NCBI GenBank assembly: GCA_016169945.1
Contig: JADLSH010000379.1
Span: 4,402,501-4,466,500 of the forward strand
Direction of reading: 5' to 3'
DNA from: Trachythela sp. YZ-2020
Lineage: Eukaryota > Cnidaria > Anthozoa > Malacalcyonacea > Clavulariidae
DNA length: 64,000 nucleotides
Below are positions 19,631-44,605 of the stretch, piece by piece (position 1 is the first letter of the stretch; every line of letters starts with the position of its first letter). A program made the position numbers and the translations under genes. The notes under the pieces are model-generated. The model was not told the DNA's origin. It did no database searches and saw only the letters and a program-made list of their open reading frames with translations.

Positions 19631-20596
19631 CTATGTTGCACCTTCCTCCAGATTGTCCAAAAATTTCTTCCAGCCAAAATAATTGCATTCAATAATCATT
19701 GTGGTCAAACTTGTGGGATGACGGGTTTCGGACTTCCTTGCAGCTACCAAAGCGTCTATATAATCATCTTTCTTCGATTCACTCCAAACATTATAAACCG
19801 GGGTAGGGAATGGTGTCATAGAAGATAATGCATAACTACAAAGTAATCGGCACAATCTACCATTGCCGTCGGAGAAGGGATGCAAGTCCAGAAGTTCAAA
19901 CAACAGCCAGCTACAAGTCTTGAACATCTTATAAACACCAACCTCCAAATCGTCCTCTTCTTTTACACAATATGTTATCAAATCATTATATCTGTCCAGT
20001 AATGTCTGCACGCTTCTTTCCATATCTTCCGGATTCTGATATTCATACCACTCTCCCTCAAACTGTGCAAATCGCGCCTTGTGACTCATTTCACCAGGCT
20101 TTGTTACGTTCTTGGGTAACTCCAGATCTTTCAGGATCAACTCGTGTGCACTCTTAATTAAACTTACATCTAGTAACCCATGCAATTTTTCGACTTCAGC
20201 ACTATCTTTTACTTTTTTGACTTCGTTCAGAAGAAACTTATAAGCTTCTAGTAAGTTTATAGTTTTCCTTTCTTGTTCAGATAAAGACCGCAGCACGGCC
20301 GACCGCTGTAAAGTGATATTTAAAACGTTGAGACAAGATTCAACGCCTTCCTTGGTAGTACATCCATGTCCTTCCTCGATGTTTACATGGTAAATAAATT
20401 GTATTAAGCAACCACGAAGCGCCTGGTTAAGACGTTTCTCATCAATAGAGTCCTTCCGCTGTTTCCATTTAATTTGGTATTCCACAATCTTTTTAACCAT
20501 TTCATTCACAGAAGGAACTTGTGTGTCTTTTTTCCGCCATTTCGGCCACTCGTCGGCTTCAAAATCAATTAAGCTTGGTACAGTACTAGTGGGCAT
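19631..20596 (-). CDS. Fic-domain protein A (putative AMP- or other nucleotidyl-transferase)
   Basis: This is an intact 321-aa, uninterrupted frame. The Fic core spans about residues 140-270. A flap-like stretch (RFAQFEGEWYEY, 175-186) is followed by the complete active-site motif HPFSDGNGR (239-247), with catalytic His239, Asp243 and Arg247. Fic enzymes usually transfer AMP from ATP to a protein hydroxyl. A canonical inhibitory (S/T)xxxE(G/N) helix is not obvious; the nearest match is NLLEAY at about 114-119. There is no signal peptide, membrane segment or TPR, so it is not an FICD orthologue in layout. A splice-acceptor-like TATATAG lies 15 bp upstream of the ATG (exon from 20,611), in the same place as CTTGCAG in copy C, suggesting a non-coding first exon. 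The target protein is unknown. Confidence 0.9.
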   Translation of the reverse strand: MPTSTVPSLIDFEADEWPKWRKKDTQVPSVNEMVKKIVEYQIKWKQRKDSIDEKRLNQALRGCLIQFIYHVNIEEGHGCTTKEGVESCLNVLNITLQRSAVLRSLSEQERKTINLLEAYKFLLNEVKKVKDSAEVEKLHGLLDVSLIKSAHELILKDLELPKNVTKPGEMSHKARFAQFEGEWYEYQNPEDMERSVQTLLDRYNDLITYCVKEEDDLEVGVYKMFKTCSWLLFELLDLHPFSDGNGRLCRLLCSYALSSMTPFPTPVYNVWSESKKDDYIDALVAARKSETRHPTSLTTMIIECNYFGWKKFLDNLEEGAT

Positions 20597-21700
20597 TGTC
20601 TGATTTTTTATCTATATAAGGACAAGGTGATATAAATTAACATCAGGCGTTACTTTTCACAACGCAGAGTCAGAAAAAATTTTCAATTTAAGGTTAATTA
20701 TTCGTCTATTATCTTTACTTTGTCCTATGAAAGAAAAGGCAGACGGTTGGCGATTTAGCAGTTTGAAAAAAGTCTGGGTTTTTTTCTCGCAAATGTCTCC
20801 CCTTCCAAAAAAATATCCAGACCCTCAGCAGAATATAGGATTTTATCAGTGATATATATGGCGAAGCACAAGGTGGCCATTAAAAGCACTGGCGGTAATG
20901 ACAGCTAGCAAATGATGCTAAATCTATTTATGTATTCGCTATAAAACAAAGGGTCATTGCATAATAGACATTACTGTGTGTAATAAAGAATTCACACACT
21001 CTTATAACTCACTGTATGATCTGACGACAATATAATGCACTGTCGCTGACTCACTATTACTGAAATCCAACTCATGCCCAATGCCGGCTAGCAGGGATCG
21101 AAAATTACGCTATTCCACTATACCGTATATAGTAAAATGCCGGACGGAATGGTAAACTTCACGATCTTGGTATTCCGTTTTTTTATCTCGTAGTGGAGTT
21201 TTTGCTCACTTGCCTATCTTATTTTGCTGTGTAATTTTAACTTTGCTACATGACAAACTGGCACCAACAGTAATGCATAACAGAGCAATGCATTTGACAG
21301 ATTATTGGTGTATAAGTAAAACCCTAATGTATAATGACAGAAGTGTTTGCTATTTTTGTCGGTTGATCTTTAGTTCTGGGGTCTTGGGAGGTACCTTAAC
21401 CACAGCACCACATTGACTACATATTTTGCTTTGGTCGGCTCCCCAAAATAGATGAGCTTCCTACACCCCTGAGAGGCTAGGGGGTTATTAAATTGCAATT
21501 TCCTCTGTGGGGGAGGTGTGGAGTTTTCTGGAATGACCCATCTCAACAAAGTGATTTTGAGAGAGAAATTTACATTCAAAGACATTCAATACGGTTATAA
21601 AAGTAAAGTGTTTTGCAGGCAAGATTTGGTATCACTTACTGATGTAAGTAAACACAATCAACATAGAGTATACGAGCCAAAGTAACTCAGTAAGTTGATT
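20597..21700. other. Upstream of Fic gene A, no gene
   Basis: It includes a TATATAG-type sequence at 20,612-20,618 that could be a splice acceptor or, less likely, a TATA element. No coding stretch is supported. It is duplicated in unit B. Confidence 0.4.
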
Positions 21701-21870
21701 CTATCTAGGGATCATGGATTTACTGGGGGTGCAGATTTTTCCGTGCGGGGGTTCACCCTTCCGGCACCAGCGCAAATTATGTCAAAGATGCCATATATTA
21801 GTGAAAATTTCAGTATGAACTCATTGATTCTGACTTGTTGTGCACCCCCCAGTAGATACGCCTATGGTGC
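21701..21870. mobile_element. MITE-like fragment with GGATTTACTGGGGG end
   Basis: GGATTTACTGGGGGTGCAG near 21,715 faces GTGCACCCCCCAGTAGATAC near 21,840 as imperfect inverted ends. The duplicate in unit B (about 30,005-30,165) has a few extra Gs. No target duplication was defined. Confidence 0.45.
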
Positions 21871-22776
21871 AGGTTCCCAATTTTGGATTTGACAGGGCAT
21901 TTATCAAACAAAAATATAATATTGGGCCATTGATGATGAGGCTCATCATTTTGACCATCTAGGCAATCTTATTTTTTTCTGACAAGGTGATCCTGCAGGG
22001 GTCCTCAGTGACGATTCATCCTGTCTCAGATGCCGGTCACGCCCTGATTCATGACGACCACCCGCTTAGCACCCCCCCCCCCCCCCTATCAGATGAAGCC
22101 AGCAATATTTGCCCGTTACATATACAATAATTATTTTGATACACATCTGAGAGCCTGATTTGCCTGTGATCGAAACTGGCCGGGTATTCTAAAGCTAAAG
22201 CTATACACATATTTTCTATAGACCTAACTGGTGTACAGTAACAGGAGAAATGGCTCCCCTGGCCAAATTTCCTAGGAAATATGAACTCCATTTGGAAATT
22301 TGGTCCTTTTACAAATATTGATCAATGTCCAAACATCTCCAACTTATGAGAGGCTTAACAGAACTACATCAAAACTTAGCAGATTAGAGTAAAAAGCAAT
22401 TTTGGTAGTTAAAAGAACTGGTTCGAAACGTGGTTAAAAGAAGTAAAACTTGACAGGAAAGTGTGAAATTCCACGATATATTTTGTCAAGTCTGCTAATG
22501 AAGGCTAATGAAAAAATCTTCATCTTTAAATATATAGCGAAAGAAACAGCGTAGTTCGGCGATGTCTACGTCTAATAACAGCTAACTATCATTAATATAC
22601 AGTAATATACGTTTTTCTGCACAAGGTCATCATTGACATACATGTCTAGTTTAGTTTATTGCCTTTAAATATACCACTCTGAGGTGGACAGAAAGCCTTA
22701 ATGTTCAGGTTTTACAACCCAATTGACAAAGGTTCCGAGGGTTAGTAAGTTAGTCACGTTAGGGGAAGGCCCTCAA
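21871..22776. other. Intergenic end of unit A
   Basis: It contains a poly-C run (about 22,072-22,086), partly shortened in unit B. No genes are seen. Confidence 0.4.
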
Positions 22777-22896
22777 AGTGATCAACCCAAACAATATTAC
22801 TGTGGAATCTGTGATAAACAGCTGAATGGAACGAAACCTTATCAAGCACACATGGTAAGCAAGGGACATAAAGAAGAGGTCGAAGCACAGTCATGA
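22777..22896 (+). pseudogene. Truncated copy of the U1-type zinc-finger exon
   Basis: The frame begins SDQPKQYYCGIC and ends with the same stop as the exon at 17,257-17,402. It lacks the first 26 bases and the acceptor, because the tandem duplication breakpoint lies inside the exon. The C-x2-C-x12-H-x5-H finger is intact, with small substitutions (SKGH for SKAH, VEAQS for VDAQS). It is presumably not expressed, unless splicing reads through from unit A. Confidence 0.7.
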
Positions 22897-23750
22897 ATAA
22901 TGATGATGTACTAGTGCTCTAGTGGGGGCACTGCAGTTGACAGAGTGCGGACTCTGTTCTAATGTTACGCGAGGGGCAAATCACTCCTAAAAAGTAGGAC
23001 GGAACGTTTGGACTTTCGAAAGTCTGGGAATTATATAGTGGGACTTTTTGGGAATTTGTCACTGACTTTTGAGTTTTTTACGAAATAATACAATATTTTC
23101 TTGTTGTTTCAGTGTTCTGGTGAAAGCTATGCAGTAATTATATCCGCTTTTTCTTCAACACTTGATAAAAAATACAATACTGGTACTAGAGCAAAATTGT
23201 CAGAATCCATACTTTACTTCAGGATAATATTACATGAAGCAGATCGCATATTTATGAGACAGAATGTCGATTCCGTCATACTCTTTCAAATTTTGGGGTC
23301 TTTCGTTCAATTCAGTCGTATATTTTAGATTTTAAGAGTGTTTTTTTATGAATTTTAAGAATTGTCAAGTATATTTAAATGGGTTTTGGGGACTTTTAGA
23401 GACTTTGGACTTTTCGTCCTAGTGTACGAGACCTTTAGAGTGATTTGCCCCTCGATGTTATGAGGTATAATGGTGGAGGCGCTGCGACTACTAGCCGGCT
23501 AGTCTTGAGGAGTGTGTCGCTATGCTTAACACTAACAGAGTGAGGAATCTGTAAGATTCAAGTTTTATAACGTTATGAAACTATGTCTTCAAATGCTCTG
23601 GTGGCCAGCACTGCTGCTACTAGATCGAGTGAAGACTCTACACGATTCAAGTTATGTTATAAATATATTGTTACGTTAACGAAACTATGGCTTTAGATGC
23701 ATGCTTTTATGGGAACACAGCAGTATACAGAGGGAAGATTCAAGTATTAA
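22897..23750. other. Duplicate of 17,403-18,245, no gene
   Basis: It follows the same sequence as unit A with minor indels. Nothing further is recognised. Confidence 0.4.
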
Positions 23751-23833
23751 AGGGATATGGCAATAAAAATTTAGTTTATCTCATTTGAAAGAACTTTTAA
23801 AATTATATTTTAATCCACCTTGCCAACGTTTCG

Positions 23834-26468
23834 ATAAAGCTGTGGCTGTTTCTGGAATGACATTGGTTAGAAATGATAGAACGTATGGTACAGGAGGGGG
23901 TGTTGCTTTATATGTGAACAACAAAATACCATTTAAAATTCGCAAGGACTTGAATGACCCCTTGTTTGAGTGTCAATGGGTTACATTACGTCCAAAATGG
24001 TTACCAAGAGCAATTTCAAAAATTGTGGTGTGCTGCGTATACCTACCACCGAGTCATAGCGAGATAGACAGTTTTTATGATTACTTTTATAATTGCTATG
24101 ACAAACTCTGTACTGAAAGTCCTAACTCAGCTTTCATTGTTTCGGGCGATTTTAACCCAACGAGTAACGGCTTTCAACAGAGTCGATTAAATAGACACTG
24201 TAGTCTCAAACAAGTTGTTAAGGTTCCGACACGGAATAACAATATACTTGATTTGATTTTTACAAATATCGCGCATTTCTATATAAATCCTGAGGTCTTG
24301 GCACCTCTATCAACATCAGATCATAACATTGTGTTGTGGAAAGCGAGAACTGATGCCTCTGTAGTAAAGGCTGGAAACATAGTAAAGGTAAAAGTGAGAG
24401 ATCTCAACCATACAAGTACGGAACAGTTTGGGGTTTTTCTAGAGAACTATGACTGGAGTGAACTTTTCTCTAACAAAGGACTCGATGAGAAAGTTGATGC
24501 TTTTCTTCATTTTACTAAAGTGATTATCAACGAGTTTTTTCCCGAAAGAATAATAAAAAAGCATACCAACGATAAACCCTTTATGACGCAAAAAATTAAA
24601 TCTCTGATGGATAAAAGAAATAAAGCTTTTAAAAACAATAAAACCGAGCTCTTCAAATATTTACGTAGACAAGTTTCAGCTGAGATAAAGAAAGCCAAGC
24701 TGCAGTTTTATGATAAAAAGGTAAGACCAAACCATAGTTCATGCCCAAAAGCATGGTGGAAGCAAGTTAAAAGATTAATTGGATCAAGGAAAAACGCTGT
24801 GACTCTAGTAGACTCCGAGACAAATCTCCAAATGAACGATAAACAATCGGCAGATTCAATTAATAACTTCTTTGCTAATTTAACGATAAATTATCCACAT
24901 ATATCAAACGAGTGGCTAGAAATGCAATGCCCGGATGATCTACCGTTAATCAGTGTTGAAGAAGTTGCTAGAGAATTGAATGCAATTAATGTTAACAAGG
25001 CACCTGGGCCAAATGATCCACCTTTGAAGATTCTGAAAATGTTTTCGAAATTGTTTGCCGTTCCCCTTGCTGAAATTTTTAATGAGTCATTTCAGACAAA
25101 GAAATTTCCTGAAACTTGGAAAAAATACAAAGTAACTGGGATTCCTAAGATCACACCATGTACAATCGCTGAAAACCTTAGACCGATTGCATTAACCAGT
25201 GTTTTATCAAAAGTTCAGGAATCCTTTACCAACAAGTGGATAAATGAAGATATAAATGGGAAAATTTCCAATTCCCAATATGGAGGGCTCCCAGGATCTT
25301 CGACTTTGTATGCCCTTCTAAATCTACTCCACAACTGGTATAGAGCAATGGACGAGCCACAAAGAGTAATACGAATAATTTTTCTTGACTTTAGAAAAGC
25401 GTTCGATCTAATTAATCATAATATACTGCTAAGAAATATGAAAGAGATGGGAGTTAGATTGGCCTTAATCCAATGGTTTGGAACATACCTCAATAAAAGA
25501 TCCCATTTTACTAAATTTGGGAATGATACGTCTGATTATGCATATATCAATGGCGGAGTGCCACAAGGAAGTAAACTCGGACCAATTGCCTTTGTAATAA
25601 AGATTGATAAACTTCCCTCTGTAATAAAAGAAGAAATCCAACTCATGATATCAACCAACATGGAAACTAATGTTATACTTGAACATGATACATTAATGTT
25701 TATGGATGACACTACATTATACGAGGTACTAGATGTCAGCCACCATATTTCTGGGAAGCAACTGGGTGGTGCTGAAAGTAAAGTTAAGAGCGTTTTAAGG
25801 TTTACTGAAGAAGATATGATGGAGTTAAATCAAACGAAATGCAAAGAAATGATAATTGACTTTCGAAAAAATGTAACTGTTATTCCACCGCTAGAAATCA
25901 ATAGACATGTATTTGAAAGGGTTAAATGTTACAAATTACTTGGTTTATGGATTGATGACAATTTGAAGTGGTCAACTAACACATGCTATATTGTTAAAAA
26001 GCGGTAAAAAGACTGTATTTTCTGAAGATGTTAAAAGGTTATGGTGCACCAAAGCAGGATTTAAAAGCCTTTTATATGGCTGTCATAAGATCGACACTTG
26101 AATATTGTGCTAAAATTTGGCACGGAAACTTAACCAAGGAACAGTCTACTGACATAGAACGAGTTCAGAAGCGTGCGCTTAGGATAATTTGTCCTGGTCT
26201 GACTTATGAAGAAGCATTACTGGACTGTAACCTTAAAACATTAAAGGCTCGCAGAGAAGAGATGTGCGGAAACCTTATAAAAACAATGACAGACCCTAGA
26301 CATAGATTACACAGTTTATTGCCAGAAACAGTTAATCAGATAAGACAGAGACAAACTAGATCAAATGGAGAAAAACTGTATAATTTTAGATATCGAACTG
26401 AACGATTTAAAAATAGCCCAATTGTGTATGGGATTGAATGTTTTAACCGAACGCTGGAGTCGAAGTAA
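23834..26468 (+). pseudogene. LINE ORF2: endonuclease and reverse transcriptase, one frameshift
   Basis: A long frame (23,834-26,007) begins inside the endonuclease. It shows TGGGVALYVNN, the GDFNP block, DLIFTN and STSDHNIV. The reverse transcriptase follows with NKAPGPNDPP, IFLDFRKAFD, GGVPQGSKLGP and the catalytic FMDDTTLYE (both aspartates kept). Near 26,000 a single frameshift separates the C-terminal part (26,028-26,468), which carries STLEYCAKIWHG, then IERVQKRALRII. With about the first 60-80 endonuclease residues missing and one frameshift, it is inactive but young. It belongs to the Jockey/CR1 group; the clade is not resolved. It differs clearly from the LINE at 1.9-8.3 kb. Confidence 0.9.
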
Positions 26469-26640
26469 ATTTATCGAATTCTATCAAAAAATTTTCAAAT
26501 TTTATTTAAGATTACTTGTAAATATTAACTCTTAACATTAGTCTTAGTATATTTTTTTATACAGTTTAAATGTAATTCACATTGTAAATTAGTATTTAGT
26601 ATTTACTATTTAATGTGAAATTCTAGAAAGATTAAAGAAG
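23834..26640 (+). mobile_element. 5'-truncated, nearly intact LINE inserted in unit B only
   Basis: In unit A the sequence runs ACGTTTCG-TATCTTGC with no insertion; in unit B the LINE lies between ACGTTTCG and ATCTTGC. No target-site duplication is visible, and one T appears lost. The element lacks the start of its endonuclease, carries the rest of ORF2 with one frameshift, and ends in GATTAAAGAAGA after an AT-rich 3' region of about 170 bp. Confidence 0.92.
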
Positions 26641-27198
26641 ATCTTGCTTAGTTCTTGAGATATTTTGACTGAAAACGATGAGCTGTCCGCCATCTTGGAT
26701 TAATTTTTGATCTCATTAACGGTGGTTTAGACGTTTAGTGACGTCACAAGCAGGGTTAGCCATATAAAACTACTCCTAGGTGACCAAATAACAATTAGTA
26801 GATGTTTAAAAAGTTGTCGGTCAATTTGTTATTTGAAATAGTGACCGAATTATAATTTTGGGCTCATAATGACCATTGACTTGGGTAAAGTACTTGCGTG
26901 TCCTTGCTTGTGGCGTAACATGCATATCCAGTTATCCACAAGAATCCAAGATGGTGGAGTGGTGGACAGCTCGCTGATTTATGATTCGCTGAGTTCTGAA
27001 GCACCTTCAGCTGTGACGTCACCCCTAGGTCCCAGTCTCATACTACATCCGCGTTTTTTCTCGCTTGCTTCAGAACGGCGGGACTAGGCTGCTCAAGAAC
27101 TAAGAAAGATACGAAAAATCGGTAAAGGAGATTTTTAAATAATTTTAAAAGTTCTTTCAAATGAGACAAACTAAATTTTTATTGCCATATCCCTTTAA

Positions 27199-27941
27199 AT
27201 GTTATAAAGATATTGTTACGTTTGCTTACGTCACACAACTTCAATCCATATAAACATTAGGTATACGCAATGAAATGTGGGATACATGTAAGTAAAATAT
27301 TCATGTTTGAAAGTGGCATGATGTAAGGACTTCTAAGGTCAATTGGCTCGAGGTGCTCTTTTGGGGAACTCAAAAAGTGGCGAAAATGGCCAGAAAAGGC
27401 TAACCCTTAACATTTTTTTCAACAAAAAGTTAAGGCTAACACCTCATAGGCTCAAACTCAAAAAGTGGCTAAAATCGCCAAAAAGTAAAGGCTAACTTTT
27501 CTTCGACAAAAAAGTAAAGGGTAAGTGGCCAAATTGCACGTGATTAAATTGGTACACATGATTGAACAATTTCCTAAAGTATAATAATTGATATATATTT
27601 AATTTGGTGCCGAATTTAGTAGCTCTTCAGCAATGGTCGAGACTTAAAGTTGGTCTCAATCCAAGTAGTGTCTTACAGTGATGCTAAATGACACAATTCT
27701 TTAAAAATTAAAAGGTACTCGAATTGTTCTGTGTAACATCGCCTTTAAACTAATCTATCTTTCTAAGTTACGGCGACCGGTTACTCGTTTTTCGTGTTAA
27801 AATAATATTTACGGATACAGATACATTTATAAGATTATTGATTTTAAAAACAAATGAGACAAACGGAACACATACACACATTTATAAAGTACTTTTTTAA
27901 ACTTTGTCTTTGTGAAAACTTTGTTCACGTAATTCGTAAAA
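27199..27941. other. Fic gene B downstream region
   Basis: It duplicates the region behind Fic gene A, with some AAAAAGTGGC/AGGCTAAC blocks missing and the stretch near 27,600 shortened. Confidence 0.5.
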
Positions 27942-28850
27942 CTATGTTGCACCTTCTTCCAGATTGTCCAAAAATTTCTTCCAGCCAAAATAATTGCATT
28001 CAATAATCATTGTGGTCAAACTTGTGGGATGACGGGTTTCTGACTTCCTTGCAGCTACCAAAGCGTCTATATAATCATCTTTCTTCGATTCACTCCAAAC
28101 ATTATAAACCGGGGTAGGGAATGGTGTCATAGAAGATAATGCATAACTACAAAGTAATCGGCACAATCTACCATTGCCGTCGGAGAAGGGATGCAAGTCC
28201 AGAAGTTCAAACAACAGCCAGCTACAAGTCTTGAACATCTTATAAACACCAACCTCCAAATCGTCCTCTTCTTTTACACAATATGTTATCAAATCATTAT
28301 ATCTGTCCAGCAATGTCTGCACGCTTCTTTCCATATCTTCCGGATTCTGATATTCATACCACTCTCCCTCAAACTGTGCAAATCGCGCCTTGTGACTCAT
28401 TTCACCAGGCTTTGTTACGTTCTTGGGTAACTCAAGATCTTTCAGGATCAACTCGTGTGCACTCTTGATTAAACTTACATCTAGTAACCCATGCAATTTT
28501 TCGACTTCAGCACTATCTTTTACTTTTTTGACTTCGTTCAGAAGAAACTTATAAGCTTCTAGTAAGTTTATAGTTTTCCTTTCTTGTTCAGATAAAGACC
28601 GCAGCACGGCCGACCGCTGTAAAGTGATATTTAAAACGTTGAGACAAGATTCAACGCCTTCCTTGGTAGTACATCCATGTCCTTCCTCGATGTTTACATG
28701 GTAAATAAATTGTATTAAGCAATCACGAAGCGCCTGGTTAAGACGTTTCTCATCAATAGAGTCCTTCCGCTGTTTCCATTTAATTTGGTATTCCACAATC
28801 TTTTTAACCATTTCATTCACAGAAGGAACTTGTGTGTATTTTTCCGCCAT
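27942..28850 (-). CDS. Fic-domain protein B, N-terminus changed by a one-base deletion
   Basis: This 302-aa frame is almost identical to Fic A from residue 25 onward. The active-site motif HPFSDGNGR is intact (residues 220-228), with all catalytic positions present. Relative to A, one base is missing in the T-run at about 28,835-28,840, so the original ATG now leads to a frameshift. The best remaining start is a downstream ATG at 28,850 (MAEKYTQVPS), which loses about 19 N-terminal residues but leaves the Fic core complete. It may be a functional shorter protein or the first step of decay. The flanks, including the acceptor-like TATATAG upstream, are shared with A. Confidence 0.75.
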   Translation of the reverse strand: MAEKYTQVPSVNEMVKKIVEYQIKWKQRKDSIDEKRLNQALRDCLIQFIYHVNIEEGHGCTTKEGVESCLNVLNITLQRSAVLRSLSEQERKTINLLEAYKFLLNEVKKVKDSAEVEKLHGLLDVSLIKSAHELILKDLELPKNVTKPGEMSHKARFAQFEGEWYEYQNPEDMERSVQTLLDRYNDLITYCVKEEDDLEVGVYKMFKTCSWLLFELLDLHPFSDGNGRLCRLLCSYALSSMTPFPTPVYNVWSESKKDDYIDALVAARKSETRHPTSLTTMIIECNYFGWKKFLDNLEEGAT

Positions 28851-31026
28851 TTCGGCGACTCGTCGGCTTCAAAATCAATTAAGCTTGGTACAGTACTAGT
28901 GGGCATTGTCTGATTTTTTTTCTATATAAGGACAAGGTGATATAAATTAACATCAGGCGTTACTTTTCACAACGCAGAGTCAGAAAAAACTTTTCAATTT
29001 AAGGTTAATTATTCGTCTATTATCTTTACTTTGTCCTATGAAAGAAAAGGCAGACGGTTGGCGATTTAGCAGTTTGAAAAAAGTCTCCCCCTCCCAAAAA
29101 AATATCCAGACCCTCAGCAGAATATAGGATTTTATCAGTGATATATATGGCGAAGCACAAGGTGGCCATTAAAAGCACTGGCGGTAATGACAGCTAGCAA
29201 ATGATGCTAAATCTATTTATGTATTCGCTACAAAACAAAGGTTCATTGCATAATAGACATTACTGTGTGTAATAAAGAATTCACGCTCTCTTATAACTCA
29301 CTGTATGATGATCTGACGACAATATAATGCACTGTCACTGACTCACTATTACTGAAACCCAACTCATGCCCAATGCCGGCTAGCAGGGGTCGAAAATTAC
29401 GCTATTCCACTATACCGTATATAGTAAAATGCCGGACGGAATGGTAAACTTCATGATCTTGGTATTCCGTTTTTTTATCTCGTAGTGGAGTTTTTGCTCA
29501 CTTGCCTATCTTATTTTGCTGTGTAATTTTAACTTTGCTACATGACAAACTGGCACCAACAGTAATGCATAACAGAGCAATGCATTTGACAGATTATTGG
29601 TGTATAAGTAAAACCCTGATAATGACAGAAGTGTTTGCTATTTTTGTGTTGATCTTTAGTTCTGGGGTCTTGGTAGGTACCTTAACCACGGCACCACATT
29701 GACTACATATTTTGCTTTGGTCGGCTCCCCAAAATAGATGAGCTTCCTACACCCCTGAGAGGCTAGGGGGTTATTAAATTGCAATTTCCTCTGTGGGGGA
29801 GGTGTGGAGTTTTCTGGAATGACCCATCTCAACAAAGTGATTTTGAGAGAGAAATTTACATTCAAAGACATTCAATACGGTTATAAAAGTAAAGTGTTTT
29901 GCAGGCAAGATGGTAAGATTTGGTATCACTTACTGATGTAAGTAAACACAATCAACATAGAGTATATGAGCCAAAGTAACTCAGTAAGTTGATTCTATCC
30001 AGGGATGGATTTACTGGGGGAGGGGGTGCAGATTTTTCTGTGCGGGGGCTCACCCTTCCGCCACCAGCGCAAATTATGTCAAAGATGCCATATATTAGTG
30101 AAAATTTCAGTATCAACTCATTGATTCTGACTTTGTTGTGCACCCCCCAGTAGATACGCCTATGGTGCAGGTTCCAAATTTTGGATTTGACAGGGCATTT
30201 ATCAAACAAAAATATAATATTGGGCCATTGATGATGAGGCTCATCATTTTGACCATCTAGGCAATCTTATTTTTTTCTGACAAGGTGATCCTGCAGGGGT
30301 CCTCAGTGACGACGATTCATGACGACCACCCGCTTAGCACCCCCCCCCCCCCTATCAGATGAAACCAGCATCCATCCCTGATTTTATCACATACGGTATT
30401 CAATGTTTACACCACTTTAAGTTAAAATATAGCAATATTTGCCCGTTACATATACAATAATTATTTTGATACACATCTGAGAGCCTGGTTTGCCTGTGAT
30501 CGAAACTGGCCGGGTATTCTAAAGCTAAAGCTATACACATATTTTCTATAGACTTAACTGGTGTACAGTAACAGGAGAAATGGCTCCCCTGGCCAAATTT
30601 CCTAGGAAATATGAACTCCATTTGGAAATTTGGCCCTTTTACAAATATTGATCAATGTCCAAACATCTCCAACTTATGAGAGGCTTAACAGAACTAAAAC
30701 TTGACAGGAAAGTGTGAAATTCCACGATATATTTTGTCAAGTCTGCTAATGAAGGCTAATGAAAAAATCTTCATCTTTAAATATATAGCGAAAGAAACAG
30801 CGTAGTTCGGCGATGTCTACGTCTAATAACAGCTAACTATCATTAATATACAGTAATATACGTTTTTCTGCACAAGGTCATCATTGACATACATGTCTAG
30901 TTTAGTTTATTGTCTTTAAATACCACTCTGAGGTGGACAGAAAGCCTTAATGTTCAGGTTTTACAACCCAATTGACAAAGGTTACGAGGGTTAGTAAGTT
31001 AGTCACGTTAAGGGGAAGGCCCTCAA
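28851..31026. other. Unit B region upstream of Fic gene B, no gene
   Basis: It is the duplicate of 20,597-22,776, including the GGATTTACTGGGGG MITE-like fragment (about 30,005-30,165) and a poly-C run (about 30,340-30,352). Confidence 0.45.
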
Positions 31027-31028
31027 AG

Positions 31029-33650: not shown

Positions 33651-33817
33651 GTAAGATATCAATTTGTTTTTATTAAATGAGCTTAGGTTTGTCTGATCTC
33701 TAACCTCAACAGGGATTTTATTCCAAAGGACGGAGCCCCTATAATGAATGCTACATTTTCCTTTTTCAGATTTATATCTAGGAACGTGTAGCGGTTTTTT
33801 TTTCTGAATTTCTCACA

Positions 33818-34473: not shown

Positions 34474-34480
34474 TTAAAAC

Positions 34481-36586
34481 CACAGGTAGCCCGCTATTTG
34501 GTTGCTTCAGAGCTGTTTAATTCAATAGATTCTATTGTAAAAACCACATGAAGTATCACCTTTCTTTATTCAACTGCTGACATAATAGCGCAGGCGCCGT
34601 TTTTTCTTTCAGCGCACGCCAATTGATCACTATAATACTATATGTATAATGTTTTCCTAAGGTTGGCAACTCTCAGCCAAATTTTCACATATACGGACTA
34701 TACACACAAACTTACACATGAAAATACTCGTACTTAAATGCAAAAATATACAAAAAAAACTATATCTACGTGGGCATTGACTTCCCTAAAACGTTTCCCA
34801 AACATTTTTTTGTTTTCAAGCAATTGCGAACACGAGAACTTTGCGAAAATACAAACTTTTGGGTTGAATTTTGTGAAAAATCGCCAGGATAATGATTGGT
34901 TGGTTGAAGTAAACAAAATTTTAGCAGGAACGTCAAAAAACAACATAAATTGGGTAAATACAGTAATTTCACTTACCATACAAAGCACCTTCTCGTCGGA
35001 AAAGCTTCTTTTCTTCGTTCTAGGTTGTCTTCCATCAAAAATACTATTAAAATTGGTTAAAATAATTTGTTTTTATGGCTTTCTTCCTCGTCCGCACGTA
35101 GGTCTTTTTGACGTACTTTAATGTCATTGCCCGAGTGAAATAGGACAAACTTCGTGAAATTTCAAAGATATTTGTGAGAATAAATACGAAAAAACAAATA
35201 TTTACTTACCGGTCAAAAGTCTTTCTTTCCAAATGTCCTCACATTTGTATTCGCGGTCGAATATAACCAAATTAAAAACTGATTTTCTCCTTCGCGGTCT
35301 AGCTGTCCAGCTCTTTTCGTTTAAAAAACTTCAAAGGAAAACCCCCCGGTTTGTGAGATTTTTGACGTTCCTGCTAAAATTTTGTTTACTTCAACCAACC
35401 AATCATTACTTCAGTTTTTTTGACGTCAGGCAGGATTTTGGATCCTGGCGATTTTTCACAAAATTCAACCCAAAAAAGTTTGTATTTTCGCAAAGTTCTC
35501 GTGTTCGCAATTGCTTGAAAACAAAAAAATGTTTGGGAAACGTTTTAGGGAAGTCAATGCCCACGTAGATATAGTTTTTTTTGTATATTTTTGCATTTAA
35601 GTACGAGTATTTTCATGTGTAAGTTTGTGTGTATAGTCCGTATATGTGAAAATTTGGCTGAGAGTTGCCAACCTTAGGAAAACATTATACATATAGTATT
35701 TTAGTAGAAATTTCCAGGTGACTATCGATTTTCCTGCATTCTGATTGGTCCAAATTGAGCCTCTAAAAAGTGATAGTCACTGGTCAGTGACTATCACTTT
35801 TTTTTTCAAAATGGCTTCTTCGCAAGCTGCCGAATTTAAAACAAAAATCGTTTTTTTGAGCCTGATTCAAAGTTTTAAATGAAAAAAACTGGCGCTAAAT
35901 TAAAGGAGGATATATTTTTGACATTTTTGAAGGTAAGCGATAACAAATACACTATTTTTCTTCCATGAAAGGCAACGTTTTCTCGCTGTTGAAATGAACA
36001 TGTATAAAACTTTTCCGTACGGCTCAACCACAAGTGTTTATTTTGAAAATTATTCGTTTTATCCTCATTTATATCGTTATATTCAGCAAAAACCTAGCTG
36101 TGATATATTTTTAAAACCATTCTACTTTGTATTTGAGCCTTTCCAAAGTATTTTTCTCATGAAATTGTTTGTTTTTGTTTCGCTTCGATATGTTTTTGAC
36201 ACTCGTCTTTTGCCGGCATGTTTTTAATAACCGGCCTCTGAGAAAAGCGCTGAATTTTGTCCTATAGCCTTTTCAACTGACCTCATAACTTTCTGTGTTT
36301 GTTTTTCTCTTTGAAATTTCTACTAAAACAATTAGTCGCCTCAGGCTCGGTGATTACAAGCCTATAGTCACTTCGCCTTCGGCTCAGTGACTATAGGCTT
36401 GTAATCACCTCGCCTTCGGCGACTAATTGTTAAATAGTGATCAATTGGCGTGCGCTGAAAGAAAAAACGACGCCTGCGCTATTATGTCAGCAGTTGAATA
36501 AAGAAAGGTGATACTTCATGTGGTTTTTACAATAGAATCTATTGAATTAAACAGCTCTGAAGCAACCAAATAGCGGGCTACCTGTG
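34481..36586. mobile_element. Composite of nested inverted-repeat elements
   Basis: The outer arms (34,481-34,633 and 36,435-36,586) begin CACAGGTAGCCCGC and are flanked by TTAAAAC on both sides. Three further inverted units line up inside. The first is 34,634-35,700 (AATACTATATGTATAATG ends, arms about 250 bp). The second is 35,698-36,328 (TTAGTAGAAATTTC ends). The third is a 100 bp hairpin at 36,328-36,431 with CGCCTTCGGC turns. Short open frames here are mirrored in both arms and are not genes. A small palindrome of AGTGATAGTCACTG type lies at about 35,765-35,800. Confidence 0.8.
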
Positions 36587-36599
36587 TTAAAACCTGCAC

Positions 36600-37215
36600 G
36601 ATAGCTTATCTTATCCCATATTTTTATGGCTTTCATAAACTTTTTGCACAAACTAGCTTATACGCCTTATACGACTGACAAAAAACAAAATATTTTCGCT
36701 GCTTGAACAAAAACACTGAGAAAACTTGCTTTAATTAACTTACTTCAGTGACAAAGATATGTTTTCCTCCTAGTTTTCCTTCTGTGATCTTTTTTAGCCA
36801 GTTACAAAGGAGAAACTGACTACTTCGATTTGTAAATAAGTTGTGGGGGACTGAAACTGACGTACGAACCGCGTAGTGATACGTGAAAGTGGACTGAAAC
36901 TGACGTACTGACCGCGTGAAATTGACTTTTGAGGGACTGAAACTGACGTACGGTACGCGCGAAGGACTGGGATTTAGGCTTCACTTTTTTCCGCCTGAAT
37001 GATTGAAATATATTATGGAAAGCAGGTATTTTTATTTTATAATTATTTCTATATTGAGCTTTATTATACAACTGTGTTAAAAAGTGTCCAAATAACGCTA
37101 AAAACGAGTACAAATATACAGCGATATTTGGATACTTGGTTATTTGTATAGTAGAAAACCGGTTTGACCGGTTTTTCTTCTCAATAAAAAATACTTTATA
37201 AGCAGTTGTATAATA
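36600..37215. other. Intergenic with a short tandem motif
   Basis: GGACTGAAACTGACGTAC occurs three times between 36,848 and 36,952, each followed by a variable CG-containing spacer. No gene is seen. Confidence 0.5.
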
Positions 37216-37216
37216 A

Positions 37217-37332
37217 ATATCTTATTAGATGTTTTGGTATGTAGTATCGCTGTACATTTTTACTCGTTGTTTGTACGGCACAACTCGTAAAAATATACAG
37301 CGATACTACATACCAAAACATCTAATAAGATA
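37217..37332. repeat. Hairpin, about 50 bp arms
   Basis: ATCTTATTAGATGTTTTGGT pairs with ACCAAAACATCTAATAAGAT, and the pairing continues through GTAGTATCGCTGTA inward. Part of the arm sequence (ATACAGCGATA) also occurs singly at about 37,117. Confidence 0.85.
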
Positions 37333-38244
37333 TATATAACTGTAATTTGTTAGTTTGTAAAATTTTGTATTAGTTAGTGTACCATATATGTAAATCCTGA
37401 TAAGTTCACCGTGGGTAAATAAAGATTCTATTCTAATGTTATCGTTCCAGATATTAAAAATTTATGGAGTTCACTGGAAGTTCACTGGTATTATTCACTG
37501 GTATAAATATGCGTGTTTTTTTGCGTGGGCTTGTCACGAAGAGTCGTCTGAGTCGGAGCACTGGAGCGAGTTAAAATTTGTTAAAAGTTTTTTCCAGTTT
37601 TTGCACGAAAATACTCATTTTTAGTGATACATAACCTATATATAAGACAAAAATTAAATGAAAAGCTAACATTGATGTAACTTTAGTCCATATTACTCTG
37701 TGTTCTTTTCAAATTCCTCACAGAAAGTCCTGAAAAAACAAAAGTTTGCCGATGTTTTTTGGCGCGAACTTGTTTTTCACTCATCAAATAAGTTGAGATA
37801 ACTTTGCTATCTATAACAAAATGTTTCTCAAATTTACTTATTCTGAAAGACCACTTTCTCTAGTTTCCCAGAGGCATAAAAAAGCTCGACTGAACAAACA
37901 GTACGCTCAAAAATTATAAAACTTTCACATAAAATGATGCACATTTTTCGTACGGAAAGTCGGAAATTTAGTGAATTTCCGCGCAGGGGCCTGGATCATA
38001 CCTACAAGACGAGCTTCAAAATTCGTGCCGTAGTTTGCCGTAGTTACCAAAGGATCGCAGGCTCGGGGGACGAGATTGTTGCGATAGTAACTCCTAGTAT
38101 GTCGGATAAACCTGTGGATAAACAAACACAACTTTTGTTGAACTGGGCTTTACCGCACGTCGATCTGTGCTTTACCGCGCGTCTAAAAAATTCAAGTCTA
38201 TCAGGCAGCTAGAGGTACGAAAAAGAGTGAACACTCACCAATCG
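37333..38244. other. Intergenic, nothing firmly recognised
   Basis: Near 38,145-38,190 the phrase CTGGGCTTTACCGCACGTC resembles CTGGGCTTTACCGTGCGTC at about 960 and in copy 2, pointing to a shared dispersed repeat. No genes. Confidence 0.4.
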
Positions 38245-38554
38245 AGGGGCAATTTCTTTTTATGATAGAAATGTTCTTCTAAGCCTCCTCAACCCATTTC
38301 CGGATGTTGGCAGTCCCAATTTTTCTTGTGGGACTTGTCCAACACACTTGCAAAACGCCACGTTGTTTAAAAATTTCGCGGGAAGAAATGAGCCAGCGGT
38401 ATTTCTGCCCAGCGCCAACCGAAATACTTCAAGTACGGTAAATAAAACGCCTAAATCATTTCCTTGCAAGTACTGCCAAACAAGATATTTTATTTTAGAA
38501 ATTATCGCCAAAGATGTAAATTTTAAAATTACGTTTAAAACAACAAACATATAA
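38245..38554 (+). other. Open stretch with two CxxC pairs, uncertain
   Basis: The plus strand is open for about 100 codons from about 38,228 and encodes NFSCGTCPTH and later FPCKYCQTRYF. The paired CxxC motifs could bind zinc. There is no start codon at a convincing place, and the opposite strand is also open. I recognise no family. Confidence 0.2.
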
Positions 38555-38559
38555 CAGAA

Positions 38560-39673
38560 TTTGAAGTTAATTTCACCGGCGGGGGTGGGACAACGCCCCT
38601 ACTGCGCAATATTATTGTCCTCCACTATGAATGCTTGCATTTCTTACAAAACCAATAGCGACATATCTGGACAACCTAAGTTTGCACCCCCAATATTTTT
38701 AAAGTGCTGCCACATTGCAATTGGCTAAAATTAAATATGTTACCACCCAAAAATCCGCTGGAAACGCTTGTATTCTTCAGCTAGCACATCTAAGTCTATG
38801 AAATGTCTGTAAAACTTCAAAGGAATCCGTGTATATAGCTGCCCAGCTACGAAATGAAGAATATTTCCATTGATTGATCGCATAATGATTATTAGCCAAA
38901 CATTCTTCACTTTGTTTGGTGCGCTACTGTTGAAATATGATTATTCATTGAAAATCGACCTCGTATGTTATGTTTAGAGACGATATGCTGAAACAACGTA
39001 CTTAAAGTTAATTATTATCTGAGCATTGGTCTCATGATTGATTGTTAACCAAACTACCAAAGATTACAAATGAGTGGAATCCGGAAGAAGGCAGGAGAAA
39101 CACTTGATGGAGCAGCAGTGACATGGAACTGGGCCAAGACTGTAGCCTTAGATAAAACAAACTGGTGAAAATTTGTGGTTCAATGTTCGCAGACGAACGA
39201 AAAAATAACCAACCTTCCCTGCGCTACTGTTTCAAACTGGTTATTTACTAAACATTGGTCTTATATCTGCTACAGTTTAAAGATGAATAATTACTGAACG
39301 TTCTAATTCCCTTTATGTGCTGCGCAAGTGAATAAAGGTGATTATTATAATTATTGTTCCTCGTTATTGCTTTCTTGTATTTCAAATTTTCAATTATCAT
39401 CTTAATTACTAATAAACGCATCAGATAAAGAAACGAATTTCCAAGTTAAAGATCGTCCATATCCTTAAACATCAGCGCACCAGATATTAGACCAATATTC
39501 AGTTAATTAATAATCAACTTTAAGAACGGGCGTACCAGATAAGGGGAGGTGGTTTTAGATAATAACTAGAAATACATGCATGCAGAATCCCCTCGCCCAT
39601 TTGAACCAAACACTTTACTCCCCAAAAGTTATTGTAACATGAAGTACTGAGTCGACCAACGTAACCATGGTAA
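38560..39673. other. Intergenic, nothing recognised
   Basis: AT-rich sequence without repeat structure or supported frames. Confidence 0.4.
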
Positions 39674-39681
39674 CACGCAGC

Positions 39682-40408
39682 CAGCGCTTCCACTTTGAAG
39701 GAAATTTCCTTTTGAAAGGAATTTTTTGCAAAATGAAGGAAATTTGAAGGAAATAAATTTTGAGGGAAATGTGAAGGAAATTCTAGAAGAACAAAGGAAA
39801 TTTGAAGGAAAATGCAAAATATTTAGTCATCTATAAAATGATCTAATGAATATGGCTCGGCCCAGAATAATTTGAAAGCGAATACTTCATGTAATATCAA
39901 TATTATAAAAATAATTGCATAAATCATAATAATTAAATCTTTGTTGATATAAATCTTTGTTGATATGCAACGTAAATTTCATATTTTTCAAACAATAACA
40001 TGTTTTAGTTATAATCACATTGTAATTCTTATTACTTTATTCTTACAAAAATAAGTACTCGATAAAGTGCAGAAAAAATATCATAATTTCTGACAAAGAT
40101 AATCGGTGTAGCTAATTATTCAATTTTGTCTCCCTGAATGACGTCATTCTGTTTATAGTTTTTGGTTATCTCACTTATCTGTACGGAAATAAAGTCATAT
40201 AATTGTGTTTAGACTTTAGAGCAATGATAAAATTGAACATCCAGATGATTGTTCTGTTGAGAAAAGGCTATTTTGGAGAATATTCAACGTAATTTGATTA
40301 AATTATTTAAAGGAAATTTGAAGGAAATTTCACAATTTTTTGAAGGAAATCTCGGTCAAACTAAGGAGAAAAAAAAGGATTTTTTTGTTTTTCAAAGTGG
40401 AAGCCCTG
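39682..40408. mobile_element. hAT-like non-autonomous element, 727 bp
   Basis: The ends are CAGCGCTTCCACTTTGAA and TTCAAAGTGGAAGCCCTG, flanked by the perfect 8-bp duplication CACGCAGC (39,674-39,681; 40,409-40,416). Subterminal regions are rich in GAAGGAAATTTGAAGGAAAT. No transposase was found. Confidence 0.9.
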
Positions 40409-40770
40409 CACGCAGCACCAGTGAACTATAAGTATACTGGAACGCTAACTCCTATGATCAAGGCCTATGATTCGTTGAAGCCAATGCGCGGGAATTTGAA
40501 CTTTCAAAAGGACTGAGGAGAGTTCCGAGGAGTGAGAAAAATTCCGTGAAAAGTTTGTTTTTGAGCGAAAATTTGCAAGAAAAATACTTTTCACATCGGA
40601 AGACTTCAATGTTTGGGATTCAAATGTGGTTTTCCGATTAGTTTTGACTGTTTTACATCTATCTGCAGCAAAAATGAGGCCGGATCGTTATCGTATGTGG
40701 AAAAAAATGACAAATGTTTGAACGTGCCGAAGCAAACTTTGCTCTTTAACTCAGAAAAAATATACTAGAA
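40409..40770. other. Intergenic, nothing recognised
   Basis: Unique-looking sequence between two related elements. No genes. Confidence 0.35.
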
Positions 40771-41494
40771 AACAATTTGGCCATTTCGAAGGAAAAGGGA
40801 AGGAAATTTTACAATTTAAACTTTTTCAGTAATTTCTAATAATTTAATAATGGTTAAACACTTTATTATGAACTTTTGAGTTAAAAAACATGTATAAAAA
40901 TAATACATCGAATATTTACATACCATCAAGGATGAATGGGGGTAATTTGGGACTTAACAGGTCTTCAGTGGGTGAGTAGAGTACTTGTACATAAATAACG
41001 CGGGCTCAATTTTTTTCGCGGGTTTTTATGAACTAAAAACAAACAGTCGAAAAAAGGGAAACTGTAATTTCTAAACCAATTGTAATTTGTAAATTATGAT
41101 GGCTTATATTGAGTCAACTTCTGAGTCAAGCTCATCAGAAGATGTTTTTTCAGGTTAATTATCCTTATTCAAATTAATTTTGAACGGTATAGACTAATGA
41201 CTATATACTACTCTACTCTGTAGTGATCTGGAACACTAATGTTGGATACTTGAATTTTGTACCGTACAATGGTTAATTATTTTTCTAATATTAAATTAGA
41301 GATTCACTATTTGAATACTGCAGTACACCTTCAATTTACATCGGGAGTACAGTACAATACAAAATTTATTATACTATTTTAAAAAAAATTGGAAGGAAAA
41401 ATGGAAGGAAATTTAGGATTTTGGGAAGGAAATTCTGCGAAAAAAAAGGACAAAAACGAGAAATTTTACTTTGCCAAAGTGGAAGCACTGAGCA
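40771..41494. mobile_element. Second, degraded member of the same hAT-like family
   Basis: Subterminal GAAGGAAATTT blocks occur at both ends (about 40,790-40,815 and 41,388-41,435). The right end reads CCAAAGTGGAAGCACTG. The left end is eroded and no target duplication was defined. Confidence 0.55.
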
Positions 41495-42480
41495 CTGTAT
41501 ATTTTTGTATTTTAATTTGTACAAAATATTGTTATTTTGTTTTTAACTATAAAATTATCAATTGCCCAACTAAAACCCCAACTATATAAAGTGGGTATGC
41601 TATTATGTACTATTTTAGCTTTGATTTACTGTAGCATTCAACCTTTAATAGACCTTCACAAAACGTTTCGAAATTTTCATAAAACTTCAACTGCTTTTCG
41701 AGCAGTATTTTTATACTTCGCACTTGCTTTTGAAATGAAATTTTTGAGATTTAATATTGTTTCTATTTGAATCAATACTAAAATACTCTTAAGATCAATC
41801 ACACAGAATGCTCTACACATTTTCAAATTCACAAACTATACTGCATGCTATAAATCGGCAAAGCAAGCATGCAAAATAGACACTTGCCCGTTTAAAACGC
41901 TCCTTTTTCGGTCTTTCGACTGTTTTTCCTCTTGTTAATTTGTCCTCTAAATAATTTTCATTTATCTCGTTTTGTAGACTCAACAACTTTCACGTCAGAA
42001 TAAACGTTTCACGTTTTTATCTGCAGCTGTTCGTCCGTAGTTGCAAACGACGGTACGTGAAACTAATATTAAGTTCACTTTGTACAATTAAATTATTATT
42101 GAAGGTCCTGGAGAGTGAGAGCGATTATGTTGAATACAGAAGTAGTTACTGCTAAACAATCTCGATATAATTGAATATTATTTTTACTCTTATACGTGGA
42201 TTATTGTATAATTCTTATTATTGCGTTTTATTGCTTCTTTAAAACAATGTTATTTTGAAAAGAAATTGAAACTTTTACTGTCCCTTTATCTACACTTTCA
42301 GCCTCGATTAGCCTTTGCTACTTGCAGAATAGTGTTAATTTTAAATAATTATGAATGAAAAATAGAACTTTATTGTTTGTTTGGAACAAAGTTTCCAAAA
42401 TATGAGCAATCTTTTGTCCAATATTCCATATATAGGAGGGTAAACTGAATATGAACAAGCAATATCATTTTTGACCACTT
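41495..42480. other. Intergenic, nothing recognised
   Basis: AT-rich sequence. Short frames only. Confidence 0.4.
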
Positions 42481-43570
42481 TTTCTAAAACTGAAAAAAGT
42501 GGCTGGAAATGCCAAAAAGTAAAGGCTAACCCTTAACTTTTCGTCGACAAGAAGGAAGGGCTAACCCTCTGAGTTTTCAAAAAGTTTTCAGGTTTTGTTA
42601 AAAGTTAAAACGAGGTTTTCAGTTTTCAAAAAGTGCTTAAAAAAGTGCTAACCATGTGAAAACGGAGCTCTTAGTCTGAATACAAGGCTGCCTTTGAATC
42701 TGAAAACGAGGCTTTAAATCTGAAAACGAGGCTTTGAGTCTCAAAACGAGGCTCATAGTTTGCATGAAAATGAGGGTTTCAATCTGAAAACGAGGTTCCC
42801 AGTCTTAAAACGAGGCTCTCAATATGAAAACGAGGCTAAAAATCTGAAAACGAGGCTTTGAATCTGAAAACGCGGCTAAAAATCTGAAAACGAGGCTTTG
42901 AATCTAGTTACGACACTAATGAGCATGCAGTATGTAATGAGCAGTATGTTTTTGAAAAAGTGTCCAAAAACAGACGAAAAGGTTAGCCTAAATTTGTTAA
43001 ATTTACGTTTCGACTAGAGTGTAGTCACCATCAGTTTGTAGTTCATAAAAATACTCAGTGGTTACGGCAAAAACCCCTTGACGTTTCATCAACTTTGGCC
43101 ACTTCATCCAAAACCTAAAAAGTGGCCAAAAATGGACAGACTCACCCCTCACATCTGAACGTGATCAAATTGGTACACATGATTGGACAATTTTCTAAAG
43201 AATAGTAATTCATATATTGGAAAACTATTGATATACGGTAGTCATATCCGTTATTGGTGCAGAATTTAGTAGCTCTTCAGTAATGGTCGAGACTCGAGAC
43301 TTAAAGTTGGTCTCAATCCAAGTAGTGTCTTACAGTGATGCTAAATGACGCAATTCCTTAAAAATTAAAAGGTACTCGAATTGTTCTGTGTAACAGCGCC
43401 TACTAAACTATCTTTCTAAGTTACGGCGACCGGTTGCTCGTTTTTCGTGTTAAAATAATATTTACGGATACATATACATTATAAGATTATTGATTTTAAA
43501 AACAAATGAGACAAACGGAACACATACACACATTTATAAAGTACTTTTTTAAACTTTGTCTTTGTGACCT
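42481..43570. repeat. Fic gene C downstream region with 20-bp minisatellite
   Basis: Homology to the Fic A/B flank starts at about 42,495 (GCCAAAAAGTAAAGGCTAAC) and resumes from about 43,150 (GTGATCAAATTGGTACACAT). Between them lies a tandem array at about 42,670-42,910 with the unit CGAGGCTTTGAATCTGAAAA, about 11 diverged copies. The array is absent in A and B. Confidence 0.8.
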
Positions 43571-44605
43571 TTAAACTTTGTGACCTTTAAACTTTGTTGC
43601 ACCTTCTTCCAGATTGTCCAAAAATTTCTTCCAGCCAAAATAATTGCATTCAATGATCATTGTGGTCAAACTTGTGGGATGACGGGTTTCGGACTTCCTT
43701 GCAGCCACCAAAGCGTCTATATAATCATCTTTCTTCGATTCACTCGGCCAAACATTATAAATCGGGGTAGGAAATGGTGTCATAGCAGATAATCCATAAC
43801 TACAAAGTAATCGGCACAATCTACCATTGCCGTCGGAGAAGGGATGCAAGTCCAGAAGTTCAAACAACAGCCAGCTACAAGTCTTGAACATCTTATAAAC
43901 ACAAGCTTTCGGATTTTTCTCCTTTTTTACACAATATTTTGTCAAATAATTGTATCTGTCCAGTAATGTCTGCACTGCTTTTTCCATATTTTCTGGGTTC
44001 GGATAGTCATACCTTTCACCCTTATACATTGTATATCGCTCTTTGTTACTAAATTCACCAGGCTTAGTTGCGTCCTTGCGTAAGTTAATATCTTTCAAGA
44101 TCAGCTTGTGTGCCTCCGTAGCTAAAGTTATTTCTAGTACCCCATGTAATTCTTCAATTTCATCACTATTATGGAGTTCCTTGACTTCTTTCTGAAGAAA
44201 CTTATAAGCTTCTTGTAGGTTTACAGTCAGTTTCCGGTTTTTTTCTTCACGTTCTAATGCTTCGGATTTCCCGTGTAATTCGTCGGCTTTCCCATTTAAT
44301 TCTTCGGCTTTTTCATGTAATTCTTCGTGGTTTCCCACGTTGGGGGAAGATTTAACGTCCTCATTGGTAGTACATCCTTGCCCTTCTTCGATGTTTACAT
44401 AGCGAAGAAATCGTGTTATACAACCGTCAAGTACGTCGTCAAGAATTTTCTCATCAATAGATTTCTTCTGCTCGTTCCAGTGACTATGGTATTTCACGAT
44501 TGCTTCAATCATTTCCTCCACCGTAGGAACTTCTGTGCCTTTTTTCCGCCATTTTGGCGACGTATCGGCTTCAAAATCAATAACGCTTTCAGCATTTGAC
44601 TGCAT
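43571..44605 (-). CDS. Fic-domain protein C (diverged paralogue)
   Basis: The frame is open from an upstream ATG at 44,644 (357 aa). I prefer the second ATG at 44,605 (MQSNAESVIDFEAD), which aligns with the start of Fic A and follows the acceptor-like AACTCTTGCAG at 44,620. Numbered from 44,644, HPFSDGNGR is at 267-275, complete with His, Asp and Arg. The C-terminal half is nearly identical to A and B, while the N-terminal half is diverged. It contains a seven-residue tandem repeat (EELHEKA, EELNGKA, DELHGKS, about 107-127) in place of the LNITLQRSAVLRS segment of A. The C-terminus is extended (KFKGHKV). As in A, no clear canonical inhibitory motif is seen; NLQEAY aligns with NLLEAY. It is a likely functional nucleotidyl-transferase with unknown targets. 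Confidence 0.88.
   Translation of the reverse strand: MQSNAESVIDFEADTSPKWRKKGTEVPTVEEMIEAIVKYHSHWNEQKKSIDEKILDDVLDGCITRFLRYVNIEEGQGCTTNEDVKSSPNVGNHEELHEKAEELNGKADELHGKSEALEREEKNRKLTVNLQEAYKFLQKEVKELHNSDEIEELHGVLEITLATEAHKLILKDINLRKDATKPGEFSNKERYTMYKGERYDYPNPENMEKAVQTLLDRYNYLTKYCVKKEKNPKACVYKMFKTCSWLLFELLDLHPFSDGNGRLCRLLCSYGLSAMTPFPTPIYNVWPSESKKDDYIDALVAARKSETRHPTSLTTMIIECNYFGWKKFLDNLEEGATKFKGHKV

Follow-up and report, generated by a model that had tools for sequence, protein, structure and literature searches.

Does a set of Fic genes in the anthozoan Trachythela sp. YZ-2020 encode AMP-transferases that have lost their inhibition, or enzymes that still carry it? We addressed this question in a stretch of 64,000 nucleotides (hereafter the window: positions 4,402,501 to 4,466,500 of contig JADLSH010000379.1, assembly GCA_016169945.1), where a first-pass annotation made from the sequence alone had described three Fic open reading frames (ORFs), here named F1, F2 and F3, as lacking an inhibitory motif and possibly deregulated. 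Our results indicate that F1-F3 are probably a divergent class II Fic family of animals which is probably autoinhibited, and we regard it as very likely that they form a Fic family of animals beside FICD and separate from it, made up of single-domain, class II-layout and probably cytosolic AMP-transferases with Glu75 autoinhibition. The elements concerned, in window coordinates, are:

19631..20596, minus strand: F1, Fic ORF of 321 aa, class II-type (Pfam Fic 39.1 bits, E 1.4e-9)
20366..20386, minus strand: candidate inhibitory motif of F1, VNIEEGH, residues 71-77, from the family alignment (coordinates derived from the F1 ORF)
19847..19882, minus strand: catalytic motif of F1, HPFSDGNGRLCR, residues 239-250 (coordinates derived from the F1 ORF)
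27942..28850, minus strand: F2, Fic ORF of 302 aa, near-identical to F1 (Pfam Fic 39.2 bits, E 1.3e-9)
28841..28906, minus strand: F1-type N-terminus, residues 1-22 (95% identical), in a frame other than that of the F2 ORF
43571..44644, minus strand: F3, Fic ORF of 357 aa, F1 paralogue (Pfam Fic 43.5 bits, E 5.7e-11)

All three ORFs, which share the minus strand, belong to the Fic/Fido family (PF02661), as they score above the curated Pfam cut-off of 24 bits and each contains HPFSDGNGR, in agreement with the motif HPFx[D/E]GN[G/K]R and with the intact active sites that had been annotated. The longer catalytic motif HPFSDGNGRLCR is common to F1, F2 and F3. F3 is 69% identical to F1 in the genome search, and its likelier start is the Met at 44605, 13 codons inside the ORF. 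Fic is the sole Pfam family in F1-F3, with no match to tetratricopeptide repeats (TPR) in the ORFs as read, upstream of which further exons are possible, and neither F1 nor F3 has a membrane-helix candidate, because their maximum mean Kyte-Doolittle hydropathy over 19 residues is only 0.81 and 0.91, respectively. Both the Pfam and the hydropathy results agree with the annotated absence of the FICD-type layout, which combines TPR repeats with an endoplasmic reticulum (ER) membrane anchor. On the minus strand, a stretch that is alike in F1, F2 and F3 lies about 15 bases before the start codons of F1 and F3 and ends in AG directly ahead of the ATG; its resemblance by eye to a 3' splice acceptor would suggest an intron in the 5' untranslated region.

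The annotation had overlooked the motif VNIEEG(H/Q)G, which is present in all three proteins. In the F1 model there is an N-terminal helix spanning residues 53-75 with Glu75 at its end, and in the F3 model the motif Glu likewise ends an N-terminal helix (residues 65-87). F1 residues 70-78 (HVNIEEGHG) were aligned with NSNHLEGNT of the bacterial structure 3cuc both by a single-sequence search and by a 122-sequence profile. In 4 of the 5 alignments listed, the profile also placed them on HTVAIEGNT of FICD, with Glu75 on the Glu of the FICD motif TVAIEGN. By alignment and model, these proteins therefore show the class II arrangement, in which a helix precedes the Fic core and carries a Glu equivalent to FICD Glu234, and they are not class I Fic proteins, whose helix is supplied by an antitoxin, as the helix lies inside the same ORF in the F1 and F3 models.

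This Glu is conserved well beyond the window. In an alignment of 184 rows, composed of F1-F3 and 181 database proteins (the best 120 of 197 matches of a first search plus matches of a further search), the Glu75 column contains E in 164 rows, D in 4, a gap in 9 and another residue in 7. It reaches at least 90% in the 122-row alignment and is invariant in a set of 15 rows, the others of which are only 21-26% identical to the first; the column also holds the Glu of TTAIEGN from the FICD of the same genome and of SNAIEGN from a Mucispirillum Fic protein. The sequence NLLEAY or NLQEAY, previously placed roughly where the motif should be, was rejected as the inhibitory motif, since it sits in the wrong helix (the long helix 107-130 of the F1 model) and has Glu in 29 of the 184 rows. 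Judging from the models, F1-F3 appear to keep a built-in inhibitory switch, and the term deregulated is unsupported for them because a Glu-containing helix, which the annotation itself had named as the finding that would speak against it, is present in the F1 and F3 models, alongside the profile and fold matches. Behind this helix, F3 and another copy, L008, carry a heptad-like repeat insert (LHEKAEE LNGKADE LHGKSEA) that is absent from F1 and F2, is one seven-residue unit shorter in L008 and, in F3, lies within or adjoining the modelled helices 103-116 and 120-158.

In the mechanism that we propose, the Fic core (His239, Asp243, Arg247 and Arg250) would bind Mg-ATP and move AMP to a hydroxyl of the target protein, which would be positioned by the beta-hairpin 'flap' (modelled strands 176-179 and 182-185). 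Glu75, at the end of helix 53-75, would pair with Arg250, in parallel with Glu234 and Arg374 of FICD, and block docking of the ATP gamma-phosphate, so that until displacement of the helix the enzyme would be off by default or work in the deAMPylating direction. The family motif, mostly V/C/I-N-x-E-E-E/G/D-H-G, is read as a divergent form of (S/T)xxxE(G/N), and duplication, in tandem and in larger segments, amplified the family in the Trachythela genome, with gene conversion between the copies as the likely next step. What the sequences and models show is the presence of the genes, their homology, the conserved catalytic and inhibitory residues, the helix and the duplication; AMPylation activity, autoinhibition and a cytosolic location of F1-F3 we infer.

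Around Glu75 the motif is variable. VNIEEG of F1-F3 departs from the literal signature (S/T)xxxE(G/N) in having Val for Ser/Thr, and the full signature is found in 6 of the 184 rows, including P0002 and P0003 (TNIEEG), each 70% identical to F1. Position 71 is V in 95 rows, C in 26, I in 19, T in 12, M in 10 and S in 6; position 74 is E in 136 and G in 28; and position 76 is E in 86, G in 57, D in 18 and N in 4. Several of our results weigh against an autoinhibited family. Ser or Thr occupies position 71 in 18 rows and Gly or Asn position 76 in 61, and a motif usually off the consensus may entail a different behaviour. Single-sequence comparison of F1 with FICD gave 0.0 bits for the N-terminal stretch and put the FICD EG on Glu83-Gly84 of F1; because of this different register, the equivalence of Glu75 with the FICD Glu relies on the profile and tree alignments, and aligned spans may contain gaps. 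Furthermore, the ratio of non-synonymous to synonymous substitution rates (dN/dS, Nei-Gojobori) is 0.69 for F1-F3 and 0.73 for F3-L008, which indicates weak constraint outside the catalytic half. Finally, position 75 has neither E nor D in 10 of the 169 rows long enough to judge (184 minus 15 short rows), the catalytic Asp being retained in 6 of the 10.

Among the six Glu-less rows with the Asp retained, P0084, P0128 and P0131 have a Glu directly on either side, and their apparent loss may be an alignment shift, while the loss may be real in P0009, P0118 and P0121. Asp243 is changed in 4 of the 10 versus 9 of the 159 others (Fisher p 0.0035, kinship ignored), an association that we take only as a hint because three of the four double-change rows belong to one clade and the fourth, P0156, is absent from the tree. 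In the octocoral set of the tree described below, a label inferred from its named members, the copies without inhibitory Glu and Mg-binding Asp are P0023, P0026, P0112 and P0031, the last being too short for the count. Conceivable, if rather unlikely, is a broader scheme with two old Fic lineages in animals, the ER-resident FICD and a cytosolic family marked by a double-Glu inhibitory motif. Through duplication and gene conversion the latter would expand in anthozoans and sea stars, perhaps serving as a switch in stress or immunity, and its brake-less copies would be tolerated once catalysis is crippled; retention of the Asp by 6 of the 10 Glu-less rows counters this last idea.

The genes are embedded in duplicated units, delimited by self-comparison of the window:

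17283..22778, no strand: first tandem duplication unit, about 5.5 kb, with F1
22777..31028, no strand: second duplication unit, with F2, split by an insertion resembling a long interspersed nuclear element (LINE) at about 23834-26640
23785-26007: LINE-like reverse transcriptase ORF (PF00078, E 3e-25)
43156..44706, no strand: diverged F3-type unit, 73-86% identical to the F1 and F2 units

The direct repeat 17283-18328 matches 22777-23833 with 95.4% identity and 18330-22104 matches 26641-30370 with 95.6%, confirming that the copies spread together with their flanks, as annotated. In 297 shared-frame codons, F1 and F2 differ by five synonymous changes and one non-synonymous change, and by five of each over the whole F2 ORF, out-of-frame start included. 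Near its 5' end F2 has a one-base length difference with respect to F1, either genuine or a sequencing error in a homopolymer, with the start of the F2 ORF lying downstream of it; contrary to the annotation, the coding regions as read are not all uninterrupted. L009, which is the most similar of the copies beyond the window, has an open frame at this site.

Genome searches for copies scored the best candidates only, and their counts are lower bounds. Searching with the F1 protein yielded at least 13 matches. On C183 there are five ORFs of full or almost full length (F1, F2, F3, L009 and L008) and a half copy (a frame of 218 aa); six stop-containing fragments lie on C92 and C306, and a further match is the 5' end of F2 that is out of frame. 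The long copies are confined to C183:4337640-4447099, so the multiplying family that had been proposed holds as a duplicated set, and a genome-wide spread is not supported, with the long copies found in one cluster and the rest a half copy and relics. Near the contig end, C183:4334956-4397693 is collinear in blocks with window positions 16769-55532 (89-99.5% identity, matches above 400 bases). The decayed fragments with stops at C92:486424-492075 and C306:98171-106337 match each other and are perhaps two haplotypes of one old relic.

Sequence exchange between the copies is suggested by the distribution of their differences. F1, F3 and L008 are almost identical at alignment codons 241-320, synonymous sites included, and the F1-F3 dS is 0.09 in residues 216-321 versus 0.61 in residues 1-110. 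Past codon 320, F3 is still F1-like at 53 of 54 bases and L008 at only 41 of 54, whereas in codons 201-220 L008 is F1-like at 59 of 60 bases versus 49 of 60 for its match to F3. The pattern points to gene conversion among the Fic copies.

Could these data be explained otherwise? Constitutive activity of deregulated AMP-transferases, deployed as a defensive or toxin-like weapon, would fit the unusual positions 71 and 76, the tandem copies, the F1-F3 dN/dS of 0.70 in the first 110 residues versus 0.39 in the last 106, and the 6 of 169 rows without Glu but with the catalytic Asp, but we find this explanation very improbable given the inhibitory Glu of F1, F2 and F3, the helix in both modelled proteins, the constancy of Glu in the 122-row and 15-row alignments and dN/dS below 1 in all five segments compared (F1-F3 and F2-F3). 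A different possibility, compatible with an autoinhibited family and unlikely on balance yet to be taken seriously, is that the duplicates are partly assembly artefacts, with unmerged haplotypes placed in tandem, or decaying pseudogenes. The collinear region near the contig end, the frameshift of F2, the half copy and the stop-bearing relics all favour it; opposed to it are the 8 kb that separate F1 and F2 with a LINE-like element within, the full-length open frames of F1, L009, F3 and L008, and the 5:1 ratio of synonymous to non-synonymous differences in the frame shared by F1 and F2. As for FICD, the same 578-Mb assembly has one separate FICD gene, L005, which reads TTAIEGN and HPFTDGNGR. 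Its TPR matches are weak and fall short of the Pfam cut-off, and its best matches in the PDB are FICD chains (E 7e-124, residues 2-326). F1 aligns with L005 over only 60 residues (37% identity), and in two trees, with long branches flagged, the family clade stands apart from FICD and bacterial rows (support 100/99 and 100/100). Membership of F1-F3 in FICD is rejected in view of this gene and this clade, and the annotated non-FICD Fic set in an animal genome is upheld by both. FICD is nonetheless a top structural match, and the approximately unbiased test, with p 0.081 and 0.058, does not reject it as the family's closest neighbour; even so, that F1-F3 are FICD orthologues stripped of TPR and membrane anchor is contradicted by their coexistence with L005 and is extremely improbable.

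The remaining question is whether the genes were acquired, a possibility that the annotation had raised. Protein searches (best 120 of 197 matches in one and 119 in a second, species being counted from the organism-named minority) gave Dendronephthya gigantea as best match, at 70%, with Paramuricea clavata among the next. The 17 species in the organism-named listed matches are all animals, namely Dendronephthya, Paramuricea, Oculina, Orbicella, Desmophyllum, Montipora, Acropora, Stylophora, Patiria, Asterias (two species), Acanthaster, Haliotis, Potamilus, Owenia, Tubulanus and Centruroides. When the divergent set A2 served as the profile, 7 proteins were obtained from the 7993 scored candidates, those sharing most words. 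In prokaryote species genomes, a single scan with three peptide patterns and limited sensitivity found 4 weak relatives among 90 candidate stretches, with 24-37% identity over part of the protein, and at the bacterial locus L004 no ORF of 150 aa was found at the match. In a 59-row tree (short search), the window proteins group with the named octocorals (set of 17, support 100), the named sea stars form a set of 6 (98), and those named stony corals that were included form one of 15 (99). In the bacterial-rooted tree, sea stars join cnidarians (set of 41, support 97); the molluscs, annelid, nemertean and scorpion, with a branching of their own that is only partly resolved, stand outside that set, and the order between groups differs from animal phylogeny. 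Within groups the history looks vertical with local expansion, and between groups the pattern fits either an old family that underwent many losses or transfers of old date. A recent horizontal acquisition, with bacteria as the source, is consistent with the patchy occurrence among animals, with ORFs of about 1 kb whose coding part has no evident intron, and with PMC4454073, which reports frequent horizontal movement of Fic genes and four eukaryotic groups lying apart from one another. It is hard to reconcile with the scarcity of prokaryote relatives in the scan, the purely animal named matches, the position of the bacterial rows used outside the family clade, and the separate sets of octocorals, stony corals and sea stars, and we consider such a recent event highly improbable.

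The window around this second Fic family is repeat-rich, and contains:

14442-15911: ORF of 489 aa with MULE transposase, ZSWIM RNaseH-like and SWIM domains
45769-46047: array of a 31-base tandem repeat, on the 5' side of F3
52822-53823: reverse transcriptase ORF with retroviral-type RNase H

Repeats at the window ends are about 98% identical (299-2332 with 59923-61941, and 5639-7698 with 61936-64000), have further copies of 93-98% identity at the contig end C183:4468841-4472456, and by eye partly encode reverse transcriptase-like frames. Elsewhere in the animal assembly, the locus L021 (G000:C94:171000-180999) shows the tight ORF spacing of bacterial DNA, and ABC transporter genes, a HipA-like gene and a SWIM protein lie there beside a Fic gene of a different type; its contig is probably a symbiont or contaminant, for which reason Fic counts in this assembly need care.

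The metazoan class II Fic proteins known, as given in PMC2686095, are FICD/HYPE in human, FIC-1 in C. elegans and CG9523 in Drosophila. F1-F3 differ from this group in the lack of TPR matches and membrane-helix candidates, 14-20% identity in the structural alignments listed, the usually divergent motif around Glu, their multiple copies, their separate clade and their coexistence with FICD. BT_2513 (PDB 3cuc), a stand-alone Fic protein of class II type that comes from Bacteroides and has the canonical motif, is 19% identical. Other family members, from Dendronephthya, Paramuricea, Oculina, Asterias, Acanthaster and others, are labelled 'Fido domain-containing' or 'uncharacterized', and the literature searched gave no functional description of them; the organism-named relatives listed share 43-70% identity with F1 across 96-99% of its length. 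Among the literature matches listed, judged by titles and abstract starts and with subscription journals and bioRxiv mostly outside the coverage, none was a paper on this family.

Extra animal Fic domains are not new per se, because PMC4454073 presents a Fic/Doc tree with four eukaryotic Fic groups, E1-E4, that do not cluster together, and PMC2686095 a Branchiostoma protein with two Fic domains; the F1-F3 family could be one of E1-E4. According to a 2021 review (PMC8097203), most metazoans possess just one functional fic allele; here one genome combines FICD with a separate multi-copy Fic family that has named relatives in several phyla. If active, these proteins would be a source of cytosolic AMPylation in animals besides FICD, and their divergent inhibitory motif would offer a natural set of variants bearing on which residues besides Glu are needed for Fic autoinhibition.

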